This document shows, piece after piece, positions 1 to 12,882 of a stretch of DNA of 64,000 bases. Positions within the stretch are counted from its first letter, which is position 1; every line of letters starts with the position of its first letter. This DNA comes from Ensifer canadensis (GTDB lineage: Bacteria > Pseudomonadota > Alphaproteobacteria > Rhizobiales > Rhizobiaceae): positions 1 through 64,000 of the forward strand of contig NZ_CP083370.1 of the NCBI RefSeq assembly GCF_017488845.2, given 5' to 3'. The notes under the pieces were generated by a model, which saw only the letters and a list, made by a program, of their open reading frames with translations, was not told the DNA's origin and searched no databases. A program made the translations under genes and the position numbers.

Positions 1-1446
1 ATGAGGCATGACGCACTGTTCGAACGAGTGAGTGCGCGTTTGAAAGCCCAGGTCGGTCCCGATGTCTTCGCCAGCTGGTTTGGGCGTCTGAAGCTCCATT
101 CGGTTTCCAAGAGCGTCGTGCGTCTCTCGGTGCCCACGACATTCCTGAAGTCCTGGATCAACAACCGCTATCTCGATATCATCACCCAGATCTTCCAGCA
201 GGAAGACGGCGAAATCCTGAAGGTCGAGATCCTGGTGCGGACCGCGACCCGTGGCGCCCGTCCGGTTTCACAGGAAGAGACGCTGCCGCAGGCAACGGAA
301 TCGGCTCCTGCAACGCCCGCACGCCGTCCGACGACGGCGCAGTCCGTGGCTTCGGTCGCAGCCTCTGCGGTTGCCAGCGTTCAGCGGCCGACCCAGGCGC
401 CGCTTTTCGGCTCGCCGCTCGACCAGCGTTACACCTTCGACAGCTTCGTCGAGGGCTCTTCCAACCGCGTTGCGCTTGCAGCCGCCCGCACGATTGCGGA
501 AGCCGGCGCCGGTGCCGTGCGCTTCAACCCGCTGTTCATTCATTCAAGCGTCGGGCTCGGCAAGACCCACCTTCTGCAGGCGATCGCCATCCAGGCGCTG
601 CAGAGCGCCCGCGCTCCACGCGTCGTCTATCTGACGGCCGAATACTTCATGTGGCGCTTTGCCACCGCAATCCGCGACAACGACGCGCTGTCGCTGAAGG
701 AATCGCTGCGCAACATCGACCTCCTCGTCATCGACGACATGCAGTTCCTGCAGGGCAAGTCGATCCAGCACGAGTTCTGCCATCTGCTGAACATGCTTCT
801 CGACTCGGCCAAACAGGTCGTCGTCGCCGCCGACCGCGCTCCTTGGGAGCTGGAATCGCTCGATAGCCGTGTTCGCTCGCGTCTTCAGGGCGGTGTCGCC
901 ATCGAAATGGACGGACCGGACTACGACATGCGCCTCGAAATGCTGAAGCGCCGTCTCGACTCCGCTCGTCAGGACGATACTTCGCTGGACATTCCCGGCG
1001 ATATCCTGAGCCATGTTGCACGCAACATCACCGCCAGCGGCCGCGAACTCGAAGGCGCCTTCAATCAGTTGCTCTTCCGTCGCTCGTTCGAACCGCATCT
1101 GTCGATCGAACGCGTTGACGAACTGCTTGGGCATCTCGTCAATGCCGGCGAACCGCGCCGTGTCCGTATCGAGGACATCCAGCGTGTCGTTGCCAAGCAT
1201 TACAACGTATCGCGCCAGGAGCTGGTGTCGAACCGCCGCACCCGCGTCATCGTCAAGCCGCGTCAGATCGCGATGTATCTGTCGAAGACGCTGACGCCGC
1301 GGTCTTTCCCGGAAATCGGCCGCCGCTTCGGTGGTCGCGACCACACGACCGTTCTGCATGCGGTGCGCAAGATCGAGGAGTTGATCTCCGGCGATACCAA
1401 GCTCAGCCATGAGATCGAGCTTCTGAAGCGCCTGATCAACGAATAG
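1..1446 (+). CDS. dnaA: Chromosomal replication initiator DnaA
   Basis: DnaA is the AAA+ ATPase that binds DnaA boxes and opens the replication origin. The 481-residue product has the full architecture: an N-terminal interaction domain (about 1-75), a low-complexity Ala/Pro/Thr linker (about 85-135), and the AAA+ core with Walker A GLGKT at 185-189 and Walker B LLVIDD at 241-246. The C-terminal DNA-binding domain carries the DnaA signature GGRDHTTV near 444-451. The window begins on the ATG, so the ribosome binding site, the promoter and any upstream in-frame start are not visible. A strong terminator follows. I did not see a cluster of DnaA boxes around the gene; in rhizobia the origin is generally not at dnaA. 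Confidence 0.97.
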
Positions 1447-1479
1447 GCGCGAGATAGATTTACTTTCCGATTGCGAGAA

Positions 1480-1504
1480 AGGCCCGGGAAACCGGGCTTT
1501 TTTC
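1480..1504 (+). terminator. Rho-independent terminator of dnaA
   Basis: The GC stem GCCCGG / CCGGGC with a GAAA tetraloop is followed by six T residues, 35 bases after the dnaA stop. It also lies just beyond the 3' end of the convergent LysR gene and separates the two transcripts. Confidence 0.85.
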
Positions 1505-1507
1505 GTT

Positions 1508-2389
1508 TCAGGCGCCGCGTGCCTGCGCGACGATCCAGGCACGGAATGCTGTGACGGCCGGCCGGTCGAGGGCCGATGGCGGATAGACCAGGTGATAGGC
1601 GAGATCGGTGGCGATGCCGGTTGGAAACGGCGCGACCAACACGCCTTCGGCAAGCTCGCGCGAAACCAGCGACAGGCGCACGAGAGCGACGCCATCGCCG
1701 GCTCTTGCCGCCTCGATGGCGCCATTGCTGTTGACGAACACCGGACCGCGCGTCGTGTCTATGCCTTCGGCGCCGACGGCCTCCAGCCACAGCTGCCAAT
1801 CCGACCTCTGAACGTCATACAACAGCACATGGGCCGAAAGATCGGCCGGCGTGGTGAGCGGATGCTTGCGGGCAAGGGCCGCGTTGACGACCGGCACCAG
1901 CTCGTCATCGATCAGCCGCTCGCTCGTCAGACCCTCATAGCGACCGAAACCGTGGCGGATAGCGATATCGACGCCATCTGACACGAAGTCGGTCAGCCGG
2001 TTCGAGGCGCTGATGCGGATGTCGATGCCGTTGAGACGCTGCTCGAAGTCGCTGATCCTCGGCACCAGCCATTGCGCCGCAAAAGTTGGCGTGCAGCTCA
2101 CCGTCAGTACCGGCGCGCGATTTCGCGCCGTCAGTTCCTCTGTCGCTTCCCGCATCATCCGGAAGGCGCGGCGCAGCGTCGAAAAATAGGTGCTGCCATC
2201 CTCGGTCAGAACCAGTTGCCGCGGCCGTCGCTCAAACAGCATCACACCCAGCGTCTGCTCCAGTTCACGCACCTGCAGACTGACCGCACCAGGTGTGACG
2301 CTGAGCTCGCGCGCCGCGAGCGTCACACTCAGGTGTCGGGCCGTGGCCTCGAATGCGCGCAGTGCTGCAAGGGAAGGAAGAGGTGTCAT
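1508..2389 (-). CDS. LysR-family transcriptional regulator, GcvA-like
   Basis: This 293-residue DNA-binding regulator has the LysR layout. A winged helix-turn-helix occupies about residues 5-62, with the typical ALRAFEATARHLSVTLAA start and a VSLQVRELEQ recognition helix. A type-2 periplasmic-binding-like effector domain covers about 90-290. The N-terminal sequence resembles the GcvA/AmpR branch. It is transcribed divergently from an EamA-type exporter gene 145 bases away. In LysR systems that arrangement usually means the regulator controls the neighbour and itself from the shared region. The effector cannot be read from the sequence. Confidence 0.9.
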   Translation of the reverse strand: MTPLPSLAALRAFEATARHLSVTLAARELSVTPGAVSLQVRELEQTLGVMLFERRPRQLVLTEDGSTYFSTLRRAFRMMREATEELTARNRAPVLTVSCTPTFAAQWLVPRISDFEQRLNGIDIRISASNRLTDFVSDGVDIAIRHGFGRYEGLTSERLIDDELVPVVNAALARKHPLTTPADLSAHVLLYDVQRSDWQLWLEAVGAEGIDTTRGPVFVNSNGAIEAARAGDGVALVRLSLVSRELAEGVLVAPFPTGIATDLAYHLVYPPSALDRPAVTAFRAWIVAQARGA

Positions 2390-2534
2390 TATGATTTAGC
2401 CATACTCAATCATGGAAAGAGAAATGCTCGTTTGTGCAAACACTAACATGCTGACACTATTTATGTAAATCGAAGTCAACCAATATGGTTGTTTCAGATG
2501 AAGGCGAAGAACTAAATCATAGGAGGGTATGGAG

Positions 2535-3497
2535 ATGCCGGAAACACTTAAGGCGAAGGTGATGGGACCCGGTGAATGGGCCATGCTGATCACACTGTCC
2601 CTGTTGTGGGGCGGCTCGTTTTTCTTCGTCGGCGTTGCGGTCAAGGCGCTGCCGCCGTTCACCATCGTTGCCCTGCGGGTCAGCCTCGCGGCGACGGCGC
2701 TTTTGATTTTCCTGCGCTTCACCGGCCGCGCGATGCCGCGCGATCCCCGCATCTGGCTTGCCTTCTTCGGCATGGGTCTGCTCAACAACCTGATCCCGTT
2801 TTCGCTGATCGTCTGGGGCCAGACTCATATCGCCAGCGGCCTTGCCTCCATCCTCAATGCCACCACGCCACTCTTCGGCGTCGTCGTCGCCCATCTGCTG
2901 ACCGACGACGAGAAGCTGACCGCCAACAAGCTCTCCGGCGTGTTGATCGGTTTTCTCGGCGTGGCGGTGATGATCGGGCCTGCAGCGCTCGGCGGGCTCG
3001 GCTCGAATGTGCTGGCGCAGTTCGCCGTGCTGGGAGCTGCCCTTTCCTACGCCTTTGCCGGCGTTTTCGCCCGTCGTTTCAAGCGGATGGGCGTTGCGCC
3101 CATCGTCACCGCGACCGGGCAGGTCAGTGCATCGAGCATCATGCTCGTGCCGATCGCGCTGCTCGTCGATCACCCCTGGACCCTGACCGTGCCGGGCCTT
3201 GAAGTATGGGGAGCGATCATCGGCATTGCCTTGATCTCGACCGCGCTTGCCTATGTGCTGTTCTTCCGCATCCTGGAAACGGCGGGTGTCACCAATCTGA
3301 TGCTGGTGACGTTTCTGATCCCGGTCAGCGCCATTCTGCTCGGCGCCTTGTTCCTCGGCGAAAACCTCGAGCCCAAGCATTTCTTCGGCATGGTGCTGAT
3401 CGCCGCCGGCCTCGCCGCTATCGACGGTCGCCTGGTCCGGCGTTTCCGTCGCAAACAAACGGTCGATCCGGATCTCGCCTGCGGCGAAAATATCTGA
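2535..3497 (+). CDS. DMT-superfamily transporter, EamA family
   Basis: This is an inner-membrane permease of about 320 residues with ten predicted hydrophobic segments in two EamA repeats. The N-terminal half opens with the LLWGGSFFFVG signature and the second half starts near residue 150. Family members export amino acids or other small metabolites; the substrate here is unknown. There are two candidate starts. An AGGAGGG Shine-Dalgarno at 2521-2527 is one base from the ATG at 2529 but eight bases from the ATG at 2535, so 2535 is chosen. It is divergent from the LysR gene, its probable regulator. Confidence 0.88.
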   Translation: MPETLKAKVMGPGEWAMLITLSLLWGGSFFFVGVAVKALPPFTIVALRVSLAATALLIFLRFTGRAMPRDPRIWLAFFGMGLLNNLIPFSLIVWGQTHIASGLASILNATTPLFGVVVAHLLTDDEKLTANKLSGVLIGFLGVAVMIGPAALGGLGSNVLAQFAVLGAALSYAFAGVFARRFKRMGVAPIVTATGQVSASSIMLVPIALLVDHPWTLTVPGLEVWGAIIGIALISTALAYVLFFRILETAGVTNLMLVTFLIPVSAILLGALFLGENLEPKHFFGMVLIAAGLAAIDGRLVRRFRRKQTVDPDLACGENI

Positions 3498-3517
3498 AAT
3501 CAGGCAAGCTCATGAAC

Positions 3518-3550
3518 GATCGCGGCGGTGCGCAGGCACCTGCCGCGATC
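3518..3550 (+). terminator. Inverted repeat, terminator-like, after the EamA gene
   Basis: Arms GATCGCGGCGGTGC and GCACC-T-GCCGCGATC pair around a GCAG loop with one bulged T. It starts 20 bases after the EamA stop. No T-run follows directly (the next T-rich stretch is at 3580-3586), so it may be a processing or rho-assisted end rather than a strict intrinsic terminator. Confidence 0.45.
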
Positions 3551-3593
3551 ATTGCGTTTGGGCCCGTGATTGCAGGTATTTTTTTTGGCGGTC

Positions 3594-3625
3594 TTGTCGA
3601 CTATCTCTTCTCCAGATCGTCCTTG
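3594..3625 (+). promoter_or_regulatory. Putative ECF42 sigma-factor promoter 1 (before DGPF gene)
   Basis: TTGTCGA at 3594-3600 is followed after exactly 17 bases by CGTCCTTG at 3618-3625. The same hexamer, spacing and downstream octamer recur at 5310-5341. The element lies 22 bases upstream of the ATG of the DGPF gene and is immediately followed by its AGGAG ribosome binding site. From memory, the TGTCGA and CGTC elements resemble promoters reported for the ECF42 group. Autoregulation is inferred. Confidence 0.65.
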
Positions 3626-3647
3626 TTACAGGAGCAGGAGAGTTCCA

Positions 3648-4022
3648 ATGCTTTACGCCGTATTTTGTTACAACCAGGAAGACGTCACTGCCAACTGGAC
3701 CAAGGACGAGGACGACAAGGTCATGCGTGACCTTGCTGCCGTCCAACGCAAATATGGCGATGCCGGCAAGCTCGGGCCGGTGGCGCGGTTGTTGCCGACC
3801 ACGGCGGCAACGACGCTCCGCCACGCCGTTGGCGAGACCGTCGTCATCGATGGCCCATTTGCCGAAACGAAGGAGCAGCTGCTCGGCTTCTATGTCGTCG
3901 ATTGCGCTTCACTGGACGAAGCGCTCGATTTCGCCCGCGAGCTCAGTGCGGCCAATCCTGCAGACGGCTCCTATGAAATTCGTCCCCTTGCCATCTACAA
4001 GCCAAGTGAGTTTCCCTCATGA
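3648..4022 (+). CDS. YCII-related DGPF-domain protein
   Basis: This small cytoplasmic protein of 124 residues belongs to the YCII/DGPF family. The diagnostic DGPF tetrapeptide is at 68-71, followed by AETKEQLLGFY, within a ferredoxin-like fold spanning nearly the whole length. Its enzymatic role is not established. The start at 3648 is chosen because AGGAG sites lie just upstream and because the family begins with a short beta strand like MLYAVFCY; an upstream in-frame ATG at 3570 would add 26 residues unlike the family and would enclose the promoter motif. Its stop overlaps the sigma-factor start (ATGA), so the two are translationally coupled. DGPF genes are the known conserved neighbours of ECF42 sigma factors. 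Confidence 0.9.
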   Translation: MLYAVFCYNQEDVTANWTKDEDDKVMRDLAAVQRKYGDAGKLGPVARLLPTTAATTLRHAVGETVVIDGPFAETKEQLLGFYVVDCASLDEALDFARELSAANPADGSYEIRPLAIYKPSEFPS

Positions 4023-5293
4023 CAGACACGACCTGGATCGACCTCGCACTTGTTTCCGCTCGGCCGCAGGCAATGGGCGCGCTTCTGCGCTATTTCCGCA
4101 ATCTCGATACGGCCGAGGAAGCATTCCAGGAGGCCTGTATCCGGGCATTGAAGACCTGGCCGAAGAGCGGCCCGCCGCGTGACCCGGCCGCCTGGCTGAT
4201 CTTCGTCGGTCGCAACAGCGGCATCGACAAGGTGCGCCGGCAATCTCGCGAGACCGCGTTGCCGCCGGAAGAATTGCTCTCCGATCTCGAGGATCAGGAG
4301 AGCGATCTTGCCGAACGTCTCGATGGCTCCCACTACCGGGACGACATTCTCAAGCTCTTGTTTGTCTGCAGCAATCCGGTCCTTCCGGCAACGCAGCAGA
4401 TCGCGCTGGCGCTGCGCATCGTCTCCGGCCTGTCGGTCAAGCAGATTGCCCGTGCCTTTCTCGTCGGCGAGGCGGCGATGGAGCAGCGCATCACCCGGGC
4501 AAAGGCCCGGGTCACCGCCGCCGGCATCGCCTTCGAAACGCCTGACGCGGCCGATCGGTCGGAGCGGCTGGCGGCCGTCGCAACCATGATCTATCTGGTT
4601 TTCAACGAGGGCTATTCGGCGATGAACGGGCCGGACAGCGTCTCGGCCGATCTTTGTGAGGAGGCGATCCGGCTCGCGCGGCTGCTCCTGCGGCTGTTCC
4701 CCTCCGAGCCAGAAATGATGGGGCTGACGGCTCTGCTCCTGCTGCAGCACTCACGCTCGCGCGCACGTTTCGATGCCGATGGCGGCATCATCCTGCTCGA
4801 TGATCAGGATCGCAGCCTTTGGAAAAAGCCTCTGATCATCGAGGCGCTGGCCATGATCGACAAGGCGGTGCGCCATCGCCAGCCGGGTCCCTACCAGATC
4901 CAGGCCGCGATCGCCGCCTTGCATGCGCGTGCGACGCGCCCGGAAGAAACCGATTGGGAAGAAATCGACCTGCTCTACCAGGCGTTGGAGCGGCTGCAAC
5001 CGTCGCCGGTCATCACGCTCAACCGCGCCGTCGCAGTGTCGAAGAGGGACGGGCCTGAAGCGGCGCTCGCGCTGATCGAGCCACTTGCCGAAAAACTCGC
5101 GGGTTATTTCTACTTCCATGGGTTGAATGGCGCGCTGTTGAAGCAGGCAGGCCGGGTTCGCGAGGCGCGCGTCGCCTTTGACCGGGCGATCGCGCTGGCC
5201 ACCAATGCCGCCGAGGCCTCCCACATCCGCATGCAGCTCGATCATCTGAGCAAGGATGCGGGCGAGAAAAACCTGGCCACTGAAAAAAGATAA
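4019..5293 (+). CDS. ECF42-type RNA polymerase sigma factor with C-terminal TPR-like extension
   Basis: The 424-residue product is far longer than a minimal ECF sigma factor (about 180-200). Sigma region 2 lies at about 15-80 (DTAEEAFQEACIRALKTWP) and region 4 at about 120-170 (GLSVKQIARAFLVGE). A DUF6596-like segment from about 185 contains VFNEGYSA, and a helical TPR-like tail covers about 290-410. This is the layout of the ECF42 group, which works without a conventional anti-sigma factor; the C-terminal extension is thought to control activity. It is translationally coupled to the upstream DGPF gene. The TTGTCGR-N17-CGTCCTTG elements before the DGPF gene and before the next gene are its likely targets. 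Confidence 0.9.
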   Translation: MTDTTWIDLALVSARPQAMGALLRYFRNLDTAEEAFQEACIRALKTWPKSGPPRDPAAWLIFVGRNSGIDKVRRQSRETALPPEELLSDLEDQESDLAERLDGSHYRDDILKLLFVCSNPVLPATQQIALALRIVSGLSVKQIARAFLVGEAAMEQRITRAKARVTAAGIAFETPDAADRSERLAAVATMIYLVFNEGYSAMNGPDSVSADLCEEAIRLARLLLRLFPSEPEMMGLTALLLLQHSRSRARFDADGGIILLDDQDRSLWKKPLIIEALAMIDKAVRHRQPGPYQIQAAIAALHARATRPEETDWEEIDLLYQALERLQPSPVITLNRAVAVSKRDGPEAALALIEPLAEKLAGYFYFHGLNGALLKQAGRVREARVAFDRAIALATNAAEASHIRMQLDHLSKDAGEKNLATEKR

Positions 5294-5309
5294 AAAATCT
5301 TGTCGGCGG

Positions 5310-5341
5310 TTGTCGGAACCGTGGCTGCAACTTCGTCCTTG
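5310..5341 (+). promoter_or_regulatory. Putative ECF42 sigma-factor promoter 2 (before AHSA1 gene)
   Basis: TTGTCGG at 5310-5316, a 17-base spacer, and CGTCCTTG at 5334-5341 match the element at 3594-3625 at the same spacing. A second TTGTCGG lies ten bases further upstream. The element sits in the 77-base gap between the sigma gene and the AHSA1 gene, 29 bases before its ATG. Confidence 0.65.
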
Positions 5342-5370
5342 GACTGAACCCGCTGACGGAGAAACAAACA

Positions 5371-5853
5371 ATGACCGTTGTCACTGAAATCAAACCTGCC
5401 GACGACCGCGAACTGGTCATCACCCGCCTGATCGATGCGCCCCGCGCGCTCGTCTACCGCTGCTGGACGGATGCCAAGCTGCTGAAGAAGTGGTTCGCGC
5501 CTTCGCCGTGGACGACGCCGGAGGCAAAGCTCGAGGTTCGCGCCGGCGGCGCCAACCGCATCGTCATGCGCTCGCCCGAGGGCGAGGACTATCCCAATCT
5601 CGGCGTCTATCTCGAAGTGGTGCCGAACGAGAAGCTGGTCTTCACAGACGCCTTCACCGATGCCTGGTCGCCATCCGACAAGCCGTTCATGGTCGTAACC
5701 ATCACCTTCGAGGACGTCGGGGCCAAGACCCGCTACACCGCACGGGTCCGCCATTGGTCCGTCGAGGATCGCGAAGCCCACGAAAAGATGGGCTTTCACG
5801 AAGGCTGGGGCCAATGCGCCACCCAGCTCGAAGGGGTAGCCAGGCAACTCTGA
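5371..5853 (+). CDS. SRPBCC-family protein, AHSA1-like
   Basis: This 160-residue protein has the helix-grip START/SRPBCC fold of the AHSA1 (activator of Hsp90 ATPase homologue 1-like) family. It opens with a strand-helix such as ELVITRLIDAPRALVYRCWTD, continues through KKWFAPSPW, and ends with a long helix containing MGFHEGWGQC. Members bind small hydrophobic ligands; bacterial versions rarely have a known ligand. A GGAG site precedes the ATG. It is the first gene behind the second ECF42-like promoter and heads the series to DUF1801. AHSA1 genes are frequent partners of DGPF and ECF42 genes. Confidence 0.88.
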   Translation: MTVVTEIKPADDRELVITRLIDAPRALVYRCWTDAKLLKKWFAPSPWTTPEAKLEVRAGGANRIVMRSPEGEDYPNLGVYLEVVPNEKLVFTDAFTDAWSPSDKPFMVVTITFEDVGAKTRYTARVRHWSVEDREAHEKMGFHEGWGQCATQLEGVARQL

Positions 5854-5916
5854 TCAAGCCCAGGGCTCGACGGCCGTCGCCCTCGCGCCTGCCACCATCG
5901 GGAAGGGAGACCCGCC

Positions 5917-6783
5917 ATGTCCGTGATCGACAACAAGAGTGCCGCCGTCGCCGAAATCCGTACGGTGATCGATGATTGGGCGGATGCCATGAGGGTAAAG
6001 GACGCCAAGCGCGTCATCGGCCATGGGACGCCTGATTGTGTCCTCTTTTCGCTGGCGCCGCCGCTGAAGTCGTCCGATGCCGGCGAGGGCGGGCTCGAAC
6101 AGTGGTTTTCCACCTGGCGTGGACCGCTTGGCTATCGCTTCGGGGATCTCGATATCTCGGTCAGCGGCGATGTCGCATTCGTCAGTATGCTCACCGAACT
6201 TTCCGGCGAGAAGATCGATGCCGGGAAAATGTCGGTCTGGTTCCGCCAGACCCTCGGTTTGAAGCGCATGGCTGCCGGCTGGAAGATCGCACACCAGCAC
6301 GAGTCCGTGCCTTTCTACATGGATGGCAGCCTCAAGGCAGCCGTCGATCTCAATCCGAAATCGACGGTCGACGGGCAAGCGCCGGCGCCGCCACCGATGC
6401 TAGGCCCGATCGCCTACCTCTGCGTCGAGGATGCGTACGCGACCGCTGATTTCTACGTCCGCGCCTTCGCCGCAACGGATGGCGGGCGGATGCTCGCCGA
6501 AGACGGTAAACGGCTGATGCATTGCCATCTGACGATCAATGGCGGTGCATTGATGCTCAACGATCCCTTCCCGGAACACGGCATGCCCTATGCCGCGCCG
6601 CAGGGCGTCGTGCTGCATCTGGTGGTCGAGGACGCGCAATTCTGGTGGGATCGCGCGGTTGCCGCCGGCGCCGAAGTGACGATGCCGCTTGCGGTCGCCT
6701 TCTGGGGCGACCTCTATGGCCAGCTGCGTGACCCCTTTGGCATCCGCTGGGGCATCGTCGGACCGGCCAAGAAGACAGACTGA
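5917..6783 (+). CDS. SnoaL-like / VOC (PhnB-like) fusion protein
   Basis: This 288-residue cytoplasmic protein joins two folds. Residues about 5-125 are a SnoaL/NTF2-like domain resembling ketosteroid isomerase or DUF4440 (VIDDWADAMRVKDAK start, ending near GWKIAHQHESVPFYMDG). Residues about 145-285 are a vicinal-oxygen-chelate domain of the PhnB/glyoxalase type (AYLCVEDAYATADFYVRAF, then VVLHLVVED, then RDPFGIRWGIV). A Pro/Ala-rich linker (about 130-145) separates them. GGGAAGGGAG precedes the ATG. Both folds usually handle small molecules, but no substrate is readable. It follows the AHSA1 gene by 63 bases, so co-transcription is likely. Confidence 0.85.
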   Translation: MSVIDNKSAAVAEIRTVIDDWADAMRVKDAKRVIGHGTPDCVLFSLAPPLKSSDAGEGGLEQWFSTWRGPLGYRFGDLDISVSGDVAFVSMLTELSGEKIDAGKMSVWFRQTLGLKRMAAGWKIAHQHESVPFYMDGSLKAAVDLNPKSTVDGQAPAPPPMLGPIAYLCVEDAYATADFYVRAFAATDGGRMLAEDGKRLMHCHLTINGGALMLNDPFPEHGMPYAAPQGVVLHLVVEDAQFWWDRAVAAGAEVTMPLAVAFWGDLYGQLRDPFGIRWGIVGPAKKTD

Positions 6784-6824
6784 AGAACGATTTGTGACAA
6801 CGGGAAACGAGGAGAACTCCCCGA

Positions 6825-7247
6825 ATGAACACTGCTCTTGTTATGACGGCTCCGGCTGGAAAAATGGTGATCCTCGGCCGCGTGCTGAGCGGTCTGGTTG
6901 TTGCGTTCCTGGCCTTCGACGGAGCGATCAAGCTCGTGCCACTGGACGTGGTGACTGAGACTTTGGCGGTGCTCGGCTATCCCGCCGATGTTGGCCTTGC
7001 GCGTCTGCTCGGCGTACTCACGCTTCTGTGTGCGCTGCTCTATGCGATCCCGAGAACGTCGGTCCTCGGCGCCATTCTGCTCACCGGTTATCTCGGCGGT
7101 GCCATGGCGACGCATCTGCGCGCGGATAGCCCTCTTTTCACCCATCTGCTGTTCGGGTTCTATCTCGGCGTCATCGCCTGGGCTGGCCTGTGGCTCCGAG
7201 ACCGTCGCGTGCGCGCGCTGATCCCGTTCAAGAACGAGCAAGCCTAA
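6825..7247 (+). CDS. DoxX-like family membrane protein
   Basis: A 140-residue inner-membrane protein with about four hydrophobic segments (near 20-42, 55-75, 80-102 and 108-128). It starts the first helix with LGRVLSGLVVAFLAFDGAIKL and carries LLTGYLGGAMATHLR, both typical of the DoxX-like family. GAGGAG lies upstream of the ATG. The downstream DUF1801 gene begins 13 bases after its stop, so they form one transcript. DoxX-like proteins are often linked to thiol or oxidative-stress functions; here the role rests only on its place in the ECF42 cassette. Confidence 0.85.
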   Translation: MNTALVMTAPAGKMVILGRVLSGLVVAFLAFDGAIKLVPLDVVTETLAVLGYPADVGLARLLGVLTLLCALLYAIPRTSVLGAILLTGYLGGAMATHLRADSPLFTHLLFGFYLGVIAWAGLWLRDRRVRALIPFKNEQA

Positions 7248-7260
7248 GGAGAATTTCGCG

Positions 7261-7629
7261 ATGAGCAAAACGGTTAGCGACTACATTGCAGGCCTTTCCG
7301 GTACGCCGGCTGCCGTGGCGAAAGAGTTGCACGGTGCCATTCTTGCCGCCGGCGGCACCAGGGACAGCGTGAAATGGGGCCATCCGATCTATGAGGCCGG
7401 CGGACCGGTCTGCCTGATCAAGGCTGCCAAGGACTATGTGACGCTCGGCTTCTGGCGCGGCGCCGATATGCTCGATCTCGACCCACGACTGGCCAAGGGC
7501 GGCGGCAAGGGCGACATGGCCTTCATCAAGGTGAAAGCGACCGGCGAGGTCGACGGCGCCCAGGTGGCGCGGCTGGTAGCCAAGGGTATCGCCCTCAATG
7601 CCGAGAAGGGCGATCCGTTCAAATCTTGA
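7261..7629 (+). CDS. DUF1801-domain protein
   Basis: A small 122-residue protein of the DUF1801 (YdhG-like) family. It has an N-terminal helix (VSDYIAGLSGTPAAVAKELHGAI), a core WGHPIYEAGGPVCLIKAAKDYVTLGF and a C-terminal helix. The biochemical function of the family is unknown. TAAGGAG gives a strong ribosome binding site. This is the last gene of the cassette; an intrinsic terminator follows within 20 bases. Confidence 0.87.
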   Translation: MSKTVSDYIAGLSGTPAAVAKELHGAILAAGGTRDSVKWGHPIYEAGGPVCLIKAAKDYVTLGFWRGADMLDLDPRLAKGGGKGDMAFIKVKATGEVDGAQVARLVAKGIALNAEKGDPFKS

Positions 7630-7647
7630 ACGACGAAACAAACTTGC

Positions 7648-7680
7648 AAAGGGCGCTCCGAAACAGAGCGCCTTTCTCTT
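7648..7680 (+). terminator. Rho-independent terminator of the ECF42 cassette
   Basis: Stem GGCGCTC / GAGCGCC, extended by AAAG...CTTT, with a seven-base loop and a T-rich tail (TTTCTCTT). It closes the series that begins at the AHSA1 gene. Confidence 0.8.
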
Positions 7681-7740
7681 GTCCGATGCAATACATCTTC
7701 GCGGGACCGGATAATTTCCTTCCAACACCCGCGAGGCACG

Positions 7741-8355
7741 ATGATCCTCTATTACCAGACCCATTCCCCTTTCGCCCGCAAGGCACTCGTCTTCGCCCAC
7801 GAGGTCGGCATCGCTGAGCGACTGGAGGTGATCCACCACGAGACCAGCCCGACGCTGCGCAATGAAGAGGTCCATGCCGAAAATCCACTCGGCAAGGTGC
7901 CGGTTCTCTTGCGCCCCGAGGATGCGGCGATCTTCGATTCCGACGTCATCTGCGCCTATTTCGATACGCTGCATGATAGCCGCAAGCTCATCCCCGAAAG
8001 CGGCGAGGCGCGCTGGCATGCCCTGAGATTGCAGGCCGTGGCGCAAGGGCTGGCGCAGGCGGGGATCGGGTTGCGTTGGGAAACGGAGCGACGCCCGGAA
8101 GCCTTGCGCTATCCGGCGCTCGCCGACGGCTATGCCGAAAAGATCGAGCAGACCTATGACTGGCTGGAGCAGACGCTCGATGTCGACGCGCCGCTTGATA
8201 TCGGCCACATCGCGCTCGCCACGACCCTGTCCTGGATGGCGTTCCGTGACCTGCCGTCGTTCCGTGACCGGACGAAGCTGAGCGTCTGGTTCGATGCCTT
8301 CGAGGAACGACCATCGATGCGCGCGACGCCGCTCTCCGGCGAGACCCACGATTGA
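7741..8355 (+). CDS. Glutathione S-transferase family protein
   Basis: This 204-residue cytosolic protein has the two-domain GST architecture. A thioredoxin-like N-terminal half (1-80) opens with MILYYQTHSPFARKA and carries the glutathione-binding ENPLGKVPVL; an all-helical C-terminal half covers about 90-200. At the usual catalytic position the sequence is Ser-Pro-Phe rather than Cys-x-x-Cys, suggesting a Ser-type or purely binding GST. It lies after a terminator and is probably transcribed separately from the ECF42 cassette. Substrate unknown. Confidence 0.88.
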   Translation: MILYYQTHSPFARKALVFAHEVGIAERLEVIHHETSPTLRNEEVHAENPLGKVPVLLRPEDAAIFDSDVICAYFDTLHDSRKLIPESGEARWHALRLQAVAQGLAQAGIGLRWETERRPEALRYPALADGYAEKIEQTYDWLEQTLDVDAPLDIGHIALATTLSWMAFRDLPSFRDRTKLSVWFDAFEERPSMRATPLSGETHD

Positions 8356-8430
8356 GCCTTCGGTTTCCTTGCGTTGGATGCAGGCAGGGCGGCCGCTAAA
8401 ACATTTGCGTCTCAGACGGTGGCATCGAGA

Positions 8431-8500
8431 CGCGATATTTCCTTGCTCTACGCATTTCCTGACGGAAAACCGCTTCGCACTTTTCCTGGAAAAGCGCTAG
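8431..8500. repeat. Rhizobiaceae-type intergenic palindromic repeat, copy A
   Basis: The stretch contains CTCTACGCATTTCC, GACGGAAAACCGCTTCGCAC and TTTTCCTGGAAAAGCGCTAG. Copies at 9759-9811, 18143-18215 and 59135-59196 (opposite orientation) share the same core order: a CGCAT/ATGTCG element, a (G)CGGAAAACCGC or CGCAAAACCGCT core, then an ACTTTT-like element. I recognise this as a common dispersed repeat of Sinorhizobium/Rhizobium intergenic DNA. Its right end GCGCTAG overlaps the hemW stop codon. Confidence 0.7.
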
Positions 8501-9678
8501 CAGGCGAGGTCGGCGACGACGGCGTCGAGAATCAACATGCCGGAAGGCGTGCAGCGCAGGCGGGAATTTCCCAGCCGCTCGATGAACCCGTGGTCGATCA
8601 GGAACTGCTCGCGGTCTGGATCGGGATCGCGGCCGGACAGCGTCTGCCAGCGGGCGAGATCGACGCCTTCCTTGAGGCGCAGGCCCATCAGTAACAATTC
8701 GTCGGACTGGGCCTCGAGGTCGAGCACTTCGCGCTCGACCATGCCGTGGCCGTAGGTTTCGACCAGCCGCAGCCATTCCTCCGGCTTGCGCTCGGTCGCC
8801 GTCGCCAGCTTGGCGCCGCCGACGCTGAGGCGGCCATGGGCACCAGGCCCGACGCCGGCATAGTCGCCATAGCGCCAGTAGGTGAGGTTGTGCCGGCTCT
8901 CGGCACCAGGGCGGGCATGGTTGGAGACCTCGTAGGCGGGCATGCCGATCGCCGCCGTGATGTCCTGGGTCGCCTCGTAGAGGACCGCCGATTGCTCACC
9001 ATCAGGAACGATCAGCTTGCCGGCCTTGTGCAGGCCGAAGAAGGGCGTGCCCTCCTCGATCGTCAGCTGGTAGAGCGACAGGTGGTCGACGGCATAGGAG
9101 ACGGCCTCCTTGAGCTCGCGTTCCCATTCCTCGACCGTCTGGTTGGGGCGGGCATAGATCAGGTCGAAGGACATGCGCGGGAAGATCTCGCGCGCCAGCC
9201 GGATCGCTTTCAGCGCGTCTTCGACATTGTGCAGCCGGCCGAGAAATTTGAGGTCCCGGTCGTTCAGCGCCTGCACGCCGAGCGAGACACGGTTGACGCC
9301 GGCCGCGCGATAGCCGTGGAAGCGCGTCGCCTCGACACTCGAAGGGTTCGCCTCCATGGTGATCTCGATGCCATCGGGCACATGCCATTCGCGGGCGATG
9401 CCCGAGAGGATAGCGTCGACCGTTGCCGGATCCATCAACGACGGCGTGCCGCCGCCGATGAAGATGCTGGTGACGGTGCGTGGACCGGAAAGCTCACGCG
9501 CCTCCGCCATTTCCTTGAGGAAAGCGGCGACGAAACGCGGCTGGTCGATCGGCTGGTGGCGCACGTGGCTGTTGAAGTCGCAATAGGGGCATTTGGCCGC
9601 GCAGAACGGCCAGTGCACATAGATCCCGAAACCGGGATCCATGCCGTCACCGAGTGCCGATAGCGTGGCCGTCTGCAT
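8497..9678 (-). CDS. hemW: Radical SAM family heme chaperone HemW
   Basis: HemW is a radical-SAM, heme-binding protein related to coproporphyrinogen dehydrogenase HemN and thought to insert heme into targets. The motif FCAAKCPYC gives the CxxxCxxC cluster ligands (Cys26, Cys30, Cys33 from this start). GGGTPSLMDP and the C-terminal HemW domain follow, and the lack of the longer HemN N-terminus favours HemW. The start is ambiguous: ATG at 9678 has a weak GAGAG site, ATG at 9693 and GTG at 9705 are also in frame. The TAG stop lies inside the repeat at 8431-8500. It follows rdgB on the same strand. Confidence 0.9.
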   Translation of the reverse strand: MQTATLSALGDGMDPGFGIYVHWPFCAAKCPYCDFNSHVRHQPIDQPRFVAAFLKEMAEARELSGPRTVTSIFIGGGTPSLMDPATVDAILSGIAREWHVPDGIEITMEANPSSVEATRFHGYRAAGVNRVSLGVQALNDRDLKFLGRLHNVEDALKAIRLAREIFPRMSFDLIYARPNQTVEEWERELKEAVSYAVDHLSLYQLTIEEGTPFFGLHKAGKLIVPDGEQSAVLYEATQDITAAIGMPAYEVSNHARPGAESRHNLTYWRYGDYAGVGPGAHGRLSVGGAKLATATERKPEEWLRLVETYGHGMVEREVLDLEAQSDELLLMGLRLKEGVDLARWQTLSGRDPDPDREQFLIDHGFIERLGNSRLRCTPSGMLILDAVVADLAC

Positions 9679-9758
9679 CGTTGCGTCTCTCATGCGGTAG
9701 ATCACGTTGACCTTGGGCCGATCGACCCGAAGTCATGACTGCGATCGCTTCTAACAAA

Positions 9759-9811
9759 TTGGAGCGGGATGTTGCGGAAAACCGCATACACGTTTCCTCA
9801 GCCCGCTCCAA
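9759..9811. repeat. Palindromic intergenic repeat, copy B
   Basis: Perfect 10-base arms TTGGAGCGGG (9759-9768) and CCCGCTCCAA (9802-9811) enclose a 33-base centre containing TTGCGGAAAACCGCATACAC and TTTCCT, the same core as copy A. It lies between rdgB and hemW, and its right arm encodes the last residues and stop of rdgB. Confidence 0.7.
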
Positions 9812-10445
9812 GGCAGGTTTCGGCGAAGATCTTGAAGGCGCGGGCACGGTGCGACAGCGCTTCAGCATCGCCCGGCTTCCAGCCGTGTTTCTCGTCCGCG
9901 CTCATCTCGCCGAATGTAGTGTCGTAACCCTTCGGCTGAAAGACCGGATCGTAGCCAAAACCCTGGTCGCCGCGCGGCGGCCACACGACATGGCCCTCGA
10001 CCTCGCCGCGGAAAAGTTCGACATGGCCGTCTGGCCAGGCAAGGCAAAGCACCGAGACGAAACGGGCCGTGCGTTTTTCAGGCGCACTTGCGCCCTTGCC
10101 CTGCAGCGCCTTTTCGACCTTTTCCATCGCCATGGCGAAATCGCGGCTGCCGTCTTCGCGTTCGGCCCAGTTGGCGGTGTAGACGCCAGGTGCGCCATCA
10201 AGTGCGTCGATCGCCAGGCCGGAATCGTCCGAAAGCGCCGGCAGGCCCGAGGCCTTGGCCGAGGCGAGCGCCTTGATCGTCGCGTTTTCCTCGAAGGTTG
10301 TGCCGGTCTCATCCGGTTCGACGAAGTCGAGGTCGGCTGCCGACTTGGCCTCGAAGCCGAGCGGCCCGATCAGGTCGCGGATCTCGCGGATCTTGCCGGC
10401 ATTGTGGCTGGCGACGATGAGCGTCTTGTCATCCAGTGTGCGCAT
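9798..10445 (-). CDS. rdgB: XTP/dITP diphosphatase (RdgB/HAM1 family)
   Basis: This cytosolic house-cleaning enzyme hydrolyses non-canonical purine triphosphates (dITP, XTP) to monophosphates, keeping them out of DNA and RNA. The 215-residue product has [10 protein letters not shown] at 13-22 and the family core [23 protein letters not shown]. The frame is open further upstream, to 10661, but family length and the [15 protein letters not shown] start support 10445. It lies 41 bases after the VOC gene on the same strand. The final codons and TGA stop fall inside the palindromic repeat at 9759-9811. Confidence 0.93.
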
Positions 10446-10486
10446 GATGTGTCGTCTCTTAAAAGATGCGGCGCGAAGGCCGCGGT

Positions 10487-10906
10487 TCATTCGATGGACC
10501 AGAGGCCCGGTTCCGCGCATTCGAGGCTGTTGCCGGCCGGATCGCGGAAGTAGAAGGAGCGCGTGCCGTTCGGCCAGACAACATCGGCTTCGATCGTGAC
10601 ACCCGCCGTTTCCAGCTTGGCCCTCCAGGCGTCGAGTGCCGACGCGGAAACGCGGAAGCACATGTGGCCCTGGCCGGTGGTGCCGTGCGGCGGCACCGGC
10701 AGGGCCGCATCCGGCGAAGGCGGTTTGACCGTTTCCGCAGGATTGAAAATCAGCAGAACGCCCGAGCCACAGCGAAAGAACACATGTCGGTTCTCCCGCC
10801 GTGTAATCTTCTCCAGCCCCAGCACACCGCTGTAGAAGGCCTCGGCGGCGTCGAGATCCGACGCATAGAGCGCAGTCTCAAGAATGCCATCCAGCGCCGG
10901 GGCCAT
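10487..10906 (-). CDS. VOC-family protein (glyoxalase/fosfomycin-resistance fold)
   Basis: A 139-residue single-domain protein of the vicinal-oxygen-chelate superfamily, with two beta-alpha-beta-beta-beta modules. It opens with [23 protein letters not shown], continues with [14 protein letters not shown], and ends in the [17 protein letters not shown] motif. Candidate metal ligands are present (GHMCFRVS and the Glu in LECAEP), but the substrate is unknown. The start at 10906 gives the family N-terminus; earlier in-frame codons overlap rph. It sits between rph and rdgB, 17 bases after rph, so it is probably co-transcribed. Confidence 0.88.
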
Positions 10907-10923
10907 CGTCTCCGTCCTTCTCG

Positions 10924-11643
10924 TCAGCCGGCGATCGCCTGCTTCTGCAGTGCGACAAGCTCGGCAATGCCGGTCTTTGCCAGTCCGAGCAGGCTTGCGA
11001 ATTCCGCTTCGCTGAAGGGTTTGCCTTCGGCCGTGCCCTGGATCTCGACAATGCCGCCGGTGCCGGTCATGACGAAATTCGCGTCGGTCTCGGCGGCGGA
11101 ATCTTCGAGGTAGTCGAGGTCGATGATCGACTGGTTGGCGAAGATGCCACAGGATATGGCGGCGACATGGTCCTTCAGGACCTTCTCGACCTTCACCATG
11201 TTGCGGGCTTCCATCCACTTCAGGCAGTCATGCAGCGCCACCCAGGCGCCGGTGATCGAGGCCGTGCGCGTGCCGCCATCAGCCTGGATGACGTCGCAGT
11301 CGATCGAGATCTGGCGTTCGCCGAGTGCGGGCAGATCGACGACGGCGCGCAGCGACCGGCCGATCAAGCGCTGGATTTCCTGGGTGCGGCCGCTCTGCTT
11401 GCCGCTCGAGGCTTCGCGACGCATGCGCTCGCCGGTGGCGCGCGGCAGCATGCCGTATTCGGCCGTCACCCAACCCTTGCCGCCGTTGCGCAGCCAGGCC
11501 GGAACCTTTTCCTCAAGGCTGGCTGTGCACAGCACGTGCGTATCGCCGAATCGCACCAGACAGGAGCCTTCCGCGTGCTTGGAGAAATTGCGCTCGAACG
11601 AAACCTTGCGCATTTGGTCGATTTTTCTGCCGGATGGCCGCAT
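10924..11643 (-). CDS. rph: Ribonuclease PH
   Basis: RNase PH is a phosphorolytic 3'-5' exoribonuclease that trims tRNA 3' ends. The 239-residue product matches the family length and opens with [53 protein letters not shown] and [20 protein letters not shown] are hallmark motifs. AGGAG lies seven bases before the ATG at 11643 and four before the adjacent ATG at 11646; 11643 fits both spacing and length. It is divergent from hrcA, with a 159-base shared region, and leads the rph-VOC-rdgB(-hemW) series. Confidence 0.95.
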
Positions 11644-11736
11644 CATCAAACTCCTATCGTATCTGGTGAGCCTTCTAGAGCATGGCGCAGCCAAAGGGAA
11701 CCGGTGGACAGCCGGGGATCGGGGCGATTTTTCCCT

Positions 11737-11765
11737 TTTGCTATCGGGCGCGGGGATCACTATAT
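11737..11765 (+). promoter_or_regulatory. Putative sigma-70-type promoter of hrcA
   Basis: TTTGCT (11737-11742), a 17-base spacer, and CTATAT (11760-11765). The -10 matches the rhizobial housekeeping consensus CTTGAC-N17-CTATAT exactly; the -35 is weak. The element ends 37 bases before the hrcA start. I see no CIRCE operator (TTAGCACTC-N9-GAGTGCTAA) nearby. Confidence 0.4.
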
Positions 11766-11802
11766 TTCCGGCGGCAGGATTGGCCTGCGAACATGGAGCG
11801 AC

Positions 11803-12882
11803 ATGGTACTGCGCAATCCCGGAGTGACCGATATCGCGGCGGCGCTGGACGAGCGTTCCGGTGAAATCTTCCGTCGCATCGTCGAAACCTATTTGAACAG
11901 CGGAGAGCCTCTCGGCTCACGCAACCTTTCGCGGTTGCTGCCGATGTCGCTGTCGCCGGCGTCCGTGCGCAATGTGATGAGCGACCTCGAAGATCTCGGG
12001 CTGATCTATTCGCCGCACATCAGCGCCGGCCGCCTGCCGACGCAGACGGGCCTGCGTTTCTTCGTCGACGCCTTCATGCAGGTCGGCAATCTCTCCCCAG
12101 AAGATCGTGCTTCGATCGATCGGCACGTGCGGTTGAGCGACCATGCCCAGCCGGTCGATACGCTGCTGGCAGAGGCAAGCCAGATGCTGTCGGGCATGTC
12201 GCGCGGCGCCGGCCTCGTGATCACCGCCAAGAACGATCCGGTGCTCAAGCATGTCGAATTCATCCGGCTGGCGCCCACCAAGGCGCTGGCCGTGCTCGTC
12301 GGCGAGCATGACCAGGTCGAAAACCGCATCATCGAGCTTCCCGCCGGCGTGACGAGCTCGCAACTGACGGAAGCAGCGAACTTCTTGAATGCCCATCTCG
12401 CCGGCCAGACGATCGGCGAGGTGCGCTCGCAGCTCGAAACCGTCAAGCAGACCGTGCGCAGCGAACTCGATGCCCTGTCCCAGGAACTGGTCGAGCGTGG
12501 ACTGGCGATCTGGTCGGGCAACGAGGGCGATGAAAAGCCGGCACGGCTGATCGTTCGCGGCCGGGCCAACCTGCTCGAGGGCCTGGAGGGAACCGAGGAT
12601 ATCGACCGCCTGCGCATGCTCTTCGACGACCTGGAAAAGAAGGACAGCCTGATCGAGCTGCTTGACCTCGCAGAGAGCGGCCCGGGTGTCAGGATCTTCA
12701 TCGGTTCGGAGAACAAGTTGTTTTCATTGTCCGGTTCGTCGCTGATCGTTGCGCCCTATCGCGACAGTGAAGATCGCATCGTCGGCGCCGTCGGCGTCAT
12801 CGGTCCGACGCGGCTCAACTATTCGCGCATCGTGCCGATGGTCGATTATACCGCGCAGTTGATGTCGCGGCTTTCGCGCTGA
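11803..12882 (+). CDS. hrcA: Heat-inducible transcription repressor HrcA
   Basis: HrcA represses groESL/dnaK-type operons by binding CIRCE operators. The 359-residue protein has an N-terminal winged helix (about 8-85: [27 protein letters not shown], then [23 protein letters not shown] and [16 protein letters not shown]), then the GAF-like dimerisation and insert domain, ending with [29 protein letters not shown] lies just before the ATG at 11803. The frame is open far upstream, but that part is antisense to rph. grpE follows on the same strand, a common alphaproteobacterial heat-shock pair. Confidence 0.95.

Follow-up and report, generated by a model that had tools for sequence, protein, structure and literature searches.

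Fixed-spacing sites on both sides of an ECF42-type sigma factor gene in Ensifer canadensis are probably promoters of that sigma factor

Within the 64,000 bases of Ensifer canadensis DNA analysed here (the window), two short and similar sites flank the gene of a sigma factor that we assign to the ECF42 type, which raises the question whether both are promoters read by this sigma factor, and which other genes it may read. Read directly, the sites are TTGTCGACTATCTCTTCTCCAGATCGTCCTTG at 3594-3625 and TTGTCGGAACCGTGGCTGCAACTTCGTCCTTG at 5310-5341, and the window has two copies of the pattern TTGTCGR-N17-TCGTCCTTG, one 5' of a YCII(DGPF)-sigma gene pair and one 5' of an operon headed by an AHSA1 gene. 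A preliminary description of this DNA had reported these coordinates, identical spacing, a T common to both sites before the octamer and a position before the DGPF-sigma pair and the AHSA1 series on either side of an ECF42-like sigma gene; all of this is confirmed, the spacer being exactly 17 bases.

The features of the locus described below, from the first A/T tract to the terminator hairpin, lie on the plus strand. The upstream, sigma-operon promoter comprises an A/T tract (3577..3586), a -35 box TGTCGA (3595..3600) preceded by the common T at 3594, and a -10 region CGTCCTTG (3618..3625), and its transcript is predicted to start at 3630 by analogy with the mapped SMc01149 start of Sinorhizobium meliloti. 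Behind it lie the gene of a YCII-family (DGPF) protein of 124 aa (3648..4022; PF03795, E 1.5e-21) and, overlapped by it by 4 bases, the sigma factor gene (4019..5293), encoding 424 aa with a TPR-type C-terminal half. The A/T tract of the second promoter (5291..5298) overlaps the sigma stop codon and is followed by a -35 box TGTCGG (5311..5316), with the common T at 5310, and a -10 region CGTCCTTG (5334..5341); the SMc01149 analogy predicts a start at 5346. This AHSA1 operon encodes an AHSA1 (SRPBCC) protein of 160 aa (5371..5853; PF08327, E 7.7e-35), a two-domain SnoaL_3 and glyoxalase (VOC) protein of 288 aa (5917..6783; PF13474, PF00903), a DoxX_2 membrane protein of 140 aa (6825..7247; PF13564, E 1.7e-18) and, last, a DUF1801 protein of 122 aa (7261..7629; PF08818). 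A hairpin with a stem of 10 pairs and a T-rich 3' side (7649..7675) is a probable terminator (fold of 7636-7690 at -16.9 kcal/mol, z -2.05), although it is missing from the output of the terminator scan; the operon probably ends there, leaving outside it a GST gene recognised by Pfam at 7741-8355. An EamA transporter gene (Pfam) lies upstream of the locus.

The assignment of the sigma factor to the ECF42 type rests on its orthology to RpoE10 (SMc01150) of S. meliloti, itself classed as ECF42 by Lang et al. 2018 (PMC6180224, in the part of that paper used here). Sigma70_r2 and Sigma70_r4_2 score above cut-off, so that the ECF core regions 2 and 4 are present, and DUF6596 is also found. The structure model (mean pLDDT 82.6) is nearly all helical, and a fold comparison pairs its residues from about 286 to 420 with TPR domains of solved structure. 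Two traits of the group, a C-terminal extension of about 200 residues with a TPR fold and an adjoining YCII/DGPF gene (PF03795, 3648-4022), are thus both found, and the Pfam domains together with the TPR-type half support the earlier naming of the gene as ECF42-like. The same extension and YCII neighbour are described, in the part of PMC8999054 used here, for Sven_0747, Sven_4377 and Sven_7131 of Streptomyces venezuelae and ECF-10 of Pseudomonas putida, organisms that are distant and are likened here without promoter comparison. PDB searches by sequence gave two weak sigma matches and one YCII relative, and a search of a plasmid collection gave three records at 72-79% identity. Pfam and NCBIfam scans of the seven neighbouring proteins recognised no anti-sigma gene, a divergent soluble one being possible; because no separate anti-sigma gene was recognised, sigma activity would probably be held or released via the TPR-type half, perhaps with the YCII protein, a mode of control proposed for ECF42 factors in PMC8999054 (section 3.5.2, among the parts used here).

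How far does the resemblance of the two sites reach? TTGTCGR-N17-CGTCCTTG is matched twice over the 64,000 bases and never across 100 shuffles, a count that is not independent of the pair, the pattern having been derived from it. A post-hoc test on both gaps, which takes the best pair of exact blocks on one diagonal, matched 15 bases, and at least 15 were reached in 3 of 5000 dinucleotide shuffles. The best ungapped 32-mer identity between the gaps (18/32) is unremarkable and was reached by 59 of 300 shuffles. The spacers agree at only 4 of 17 bases, the common part being the -35 and -10 boxes only, and therefore the two sites are one recognition sequence used twice and not a copied segment. 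Earlier talk of a "duplicated" promoter is right for the boxes and the N17 spacing and misleading for the spacers; the accompanying claim that a chance match is very unlikely finds support in the block shuffles, not in the 32-mer identity. Taken alone the pair is suggestive; with its conservation in relatives, as read from their sequences, we consider it convincing. We also observed that TTGTCGG stands twice in tandem 5' of the AHSA1 operon (5300-5306 and 5310-5316), with the N17 spacing for the second copy only. No tandem repeats were found in 1-12000 of the window, and a generic scan found no housekeeping-type promoter in 2400-8500.

Within the genus the sigma factor is present at at least 85% identity in 16/16 genomes, with the N17 motif 3' of the sigma gene in all 16 and 5' of YCII in 14; in the two exceptions the -35 box has a single-base difference. 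In a family sample of 82 orthologous loci (sigma identity 66-100%, 16 of them from the genus itself), a YCII homologue always precedes the sigma gene (82/82), and TGTCGR-N17-CGTY lies within 150 bases 5' of this YCII homologue in 75. For spacers of 8 to 26 bases, every length other than 17 gives 0-5 loci; shuffles give a mean of 0.07 and the reversed pattern 0. The position is also constrained: of the 76 motif-bearing loci (spacer 16-18), 75 place the end of CGTY 19-27 bases 5' of the YCII ATG. On the 3' side of the sigma gene, 55 loci carry the motif with N17 and 27 lack it at that spacing. Outside the genus it is found upstream in 61/66 and downstream in 39/66 loci, and in a set of named genomes that overlaps this sample (the best 80 of 291 relatives) in 73/80 and 52/80; as the genomes are related by ancestry, such counts are not independent. 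The downstream promoter persists while the first genes behind it change: AHSA1 and SnoaL-VOC follow the motif in 7/16 genomes of the genus, while the other nine have DoxX and DUF1801 directly behind it, without AHSA1 or SnoaL-VOC there.

The motif is also coupled to the presence of the sigma factor. The strict pattern TGTCGG-N17-CGTCCTTGR was found in 84 of 247 family genomes: in 77 of the 89 with a close orthologue (at least 62% identity; 194 copies), and so missing in 12, against 7 of the 158 others (7 copies). Its backward control gave four matches in total in the 247 genomes. A Fisher value for this coupling overstates the evidence because genomes share ancestry. One of the seven others (G081) carries the pattern directly 3' of an ECF42 gene at 49% identity. 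A copy need not sit near the sigma gene: genome G229 has six strict copies, none less than 200 kb from its sigma gene. ECF42 paralogues (about 40% identity) that have a YCII gene of their own upstream were compared at seven loci, and 7/7 lack the motif over the 110 bases 5' of YCII; two of these loci (L053, L054) have TGTCGA-N17-CGTC about 0.5 kb 5' of the YCII gene. In these two genomes, both of the genus, DUF1801 and GST of the locus have the paralogue and its YCII gene between them. The E. canadensis genome itself holds a broken second ECF42 locus at C1:1932202-1932581 on the minus strand (L057, about 3313-4082), in which a C-terminal sigma fragment with DUF6596 continues from a short N-terminal part that resembles a membrane protein (by eye, MAPEG-like), with a one-mismatch motif and an A/T tract upstream.

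The motif is the published RpoE10 promoter of S. meliloti, and the promoter pair and one target operon were already known. In the part of PMC6180224 used here, six genes are up on RpoE10 overexpression, SMc01149-SMc01148 and SMb20475-SMb20474 included; upstream of SMc01149 the promoter reads CCCTGTCGGCAGGCGGCATCCTCCTTCGTCCTTGGAATg, with a mapped start, and TGTCGG-N17-CGTCCTTGG is common to it and the AHSA1-operon site of the window. The same part describes SMc01151, the YCII gene that comes first in the sigma operon, as carrying the motif, with a mapped start that overlaps it, and as not raised by RpoE10 overexpression. The two systems share an orthologous sigma factor (84% identity to that of S. 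meliloti 4H41), the YCII partner, AHSA1 and SnoaL-VOC genes downstream, identical -35 and -10 boxes with N17 and, according to those pages, a glyoxalase-type target elsewhere in the S. meliloti genome (SMb20475). They differ in that here DoxX and DUF1801 genes also belong to the downstream operon, the upstream -10 is the full CGTCCTTG, and RibD_C and DUF1428 genes are among the predicted targets. The ECF41 system SMb20029-rpoE9 of S. meliloti resembles this one in a -10 CGTC and a small partner gene, yet its motif is TGTCACA-N16-CGTC, with another -35 and spacer (PMC3616915), and ECF41 factors have a SnoaL-type extension (PMC8103513), as far as the portions of these papers used here go.

The conserved boxes, their spacing, their coupling to the presence of the sigma factor and the target families are direct observations, and they are best explained if the sigma factor of the ECF42 group encoded at 4019-5293 reads both sites as its promoters, a reading to which we give a probability of roughly 0.87. 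RNA polymerase with this sigma factor would recognise TGTCGR and CGTC(C/T)T exactly 17 bases apart, perhaps assisted by an A/T tract that lies another 10-17 bases or so upstream, and would start about nine bases after CGTC, giving one transcript of YCII and sigma and another of AHSA1, SnoaL-VOC, DoxX and DUF1801. The prediction extends to scattered promoters in front of RibD_C reductase-like, PhnB/VOC and DUF1428 genes. Such an A/T tract lies about 10-17 bases 5' of the -35 box: A/T in -18..-10 has a mean of 0.70 over 71 motif matches in the family, 49 of which reach 0.66, compared with a mean of 0.49 and 6/23 among one- and two-mismatch matches of the E. canadensis genome (the two-mismatch ones being L024-L030, among matches listed), a comparison set that probably includes at least two real promoters. 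The exact site C1:1967837 lacks the tract at the usual distance. That the sigma factor reads the promoter of its own operon is, like the inducing signal, something we infer. Conservation makes autoregulation of the sigma operon plausible, and the sole experiment, overexpression in S. meliloti, disfavours it. The preliminary proposal that the sigma factor activates both its own operon and the next one is supported for the next operon, whose S. meliloti counterpart rises with RpoE10, while self-regulation is unproven, SMc01151 not being raised.

That negative result speaks for a narrower alternative, in which only the downstream and scattered sites work as ECF42 promoters and the sigma operon is read by another holoenzyme, its motif being weak, silent or used only at strong induction. 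The mapped start of SMc01151 overlaps the motif, as the same part of PMC6180224 has it, and in S. meliloti 4H41 the upstream -10 is CGTCTTC and not CGTCCTTG. Yet the sigma-operon motif is the better conserved of the two (75/82 versus 55/82 downstream), the upstream site of the window has the full CGTCCTTG, and SMb20475, whose -10 is CGTCATC, is induced by RpoE10 in that part of the paper, so that a -10 other than CGTCCTTG alone does not explain silence. We hold this alternative to be somewhat unlikely, though a serious candidate.

The motif could also be the operator of a DNA-binding regulator and no promoter at all; two blocks with a fixed gap are compatible with an operator, and the common A/T tract could belong to a binding site. 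This is very improbable given that the spacing is fixed at 17, that the motif reads as non-palindromic, that CGTY keeps its 19-27 bases from the YCII ATG in 75/76 motif-bearing loci, and that in S. meliloti a start is mapped just downstream and the sigma factor itself induces (PMC6180224, in the part used here). Chance or local sequence duplication as the source of the similarity between the gaps would fit a 32-mer identity within the usual range, but the block score was matched by just 3/5000 shuffles, the spacers are unrelated (4/17) and the motif is kept across 32 genera upstream and 22 downstream; the counts at orthologous loci (75/82) and the coupling to the sigma factor (77/89 vs 7/158) speak strongly against it, and it can be practically dismissed.

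Returning to the reading of both sites as ECF42 promoters, the spacer of the sigma-operon promoter has a further feature. A TA element, TA(C/T/G)(T/C), often TACTC, stands at spacer position 10 in 34/79 loci (18/32 genera) or at position 2 (CTAT) in 22/79, 15 of these in the genus itself, and never at both in the 79 loci; the other spacer positions have drifted. Among the downstream promoters it is found at positions 2 and 10 in 0/55. These counts are post hoc, the element having been defined after viewing the alignment, and the contrast may in part reflect ancestry, because the sigma-operon promoters are orthologous whereas the downstream ones precede different genes. It is conceivable, and in our view rather unlikely, that the sigma-operon promoter is composite, the TA element being the -10 of a second, overlapping basal promoter, with the sigma factor and another holoenzyme competing for one stretch of DNA. 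If so, self-regulation would be a switch of start site and not simple amplification, which could explain why overexpressed RpoE10 does not raise SMc01151, a gene with a mapped start overlapping the motif. The CTAT that S. meliloti itself has at position 2, however, accounts poorly for its start within CGTC, being too distant upstream to serve as an ordinary -10 element.

Run over the whole genome, as the preliminary description had suggested, the motif (TGTCGR-N17-CGTCCTTG) has seven exact matches, six of them directly before genes. Besides the two in the window, before YCII-sigma and the AHSA1 operon, these are C1:662091 and C1:1967837, each before a RibD_C gene, C1:2451927 before a PhnB-type 3-dmu-9_3-mt gene and C1:3472794 before a VOC gene. 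The seventh, C4:400599, has no gene start just behind it in the list of open reading frames and was treated as chance despite an A/T content of 0.67 in the tract window. Sixteen one-mismatch matches were listed, and genes were inspected behind four that have an A/T tract (L011, L012, L014, L015). Two were retained as predicted promoters: C1:2258676, before a second VOC gene (L014), and C1:2451822, before a DUF1428 gene (L015) that is divergent from the PhnB-type gene and shares its intergenic region. In a motif scan, the CGTCCTAG variant of C1:2258676 turned up again elsewhere in the genus, with similar spacers. L011 was not retained and sits before a broken locus; L012, with an MFS gene starting 107 bases away, is a possible site. 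L009 and L027 also have A/T of 0.67 in the tract window. With up to two mismatches the genome gives 209 matches, barely above the 152 of the backward control, and these looser matches are therefore mostly chance. The predicted regulon, as read from sequence, comes to about 12 genes at 8 promoters; the six genes proposed earlier were too few, as six further sites (four exact, two one-mismatch) stand before other genes.

Relatives show which kinds of gene recur behind the motif. By coordinate comparison, 15/16 genomes of the genus have a VOC homologue outside the sigma locus, and the motif lies just upstream in 15/15. The 49 proteins chosen from behind 53 family motif matches comprise 3-dmu-9_3-mt (11) and glyoxalase (11) in overlapping sets, DoxX_2 (8), RibD_C (7), ABC/DrrA (5), AHSA1 (4), GST (2), DUF899 (1) and others. 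A second set of 21 more proteins (20 from the family and the VOC protein of E. canadensis) adds AHSA1 (5), 3-dmu-9_3-mt (3), DUF1428, SMP-30-like and glyoxalase (2 each) and RibD_C, DUF899, GST, DoxX and DUF1905 (one each); by eye, four of the 20 family open reading frames (L269, L274, L275, L280) are unlike real genes. Two further genera have genes of DrrA-type ABC transporter ATPases behind the motif (L132-L134, L155, L156), and such targets suggest drug export in some regulons. A CMD gene and an ECF sigma gene (L060, 1604-2931 and 3152-3781), an ECF41-like arrangement comparable to SMb20029-rpoE9 of S. meliloti, lie beside the motif-bearing RibD_C gene at C1:1967837; cross-talk between ECF41 and ECF42 is possible at this gene. 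From the protein families alone, we infer that the targets serve the handling of small reactive or toxic molecules.

Altogether, a conserved and easily scanned promoter turns the few targets reported in S. meliloti into a predicted list for the whole family, namely VOC/PhnB, AHSA1, RibD_C, DoxX, DUF1428, GST, DUF899, SMP-30-like and DrrA-type ABC proteins, for which small-molecule handling is a plausible common link that suggests inducers to try. The ECF42 group is widespread, and the autoregulation result becomes a concrete question of overlapping promoters.
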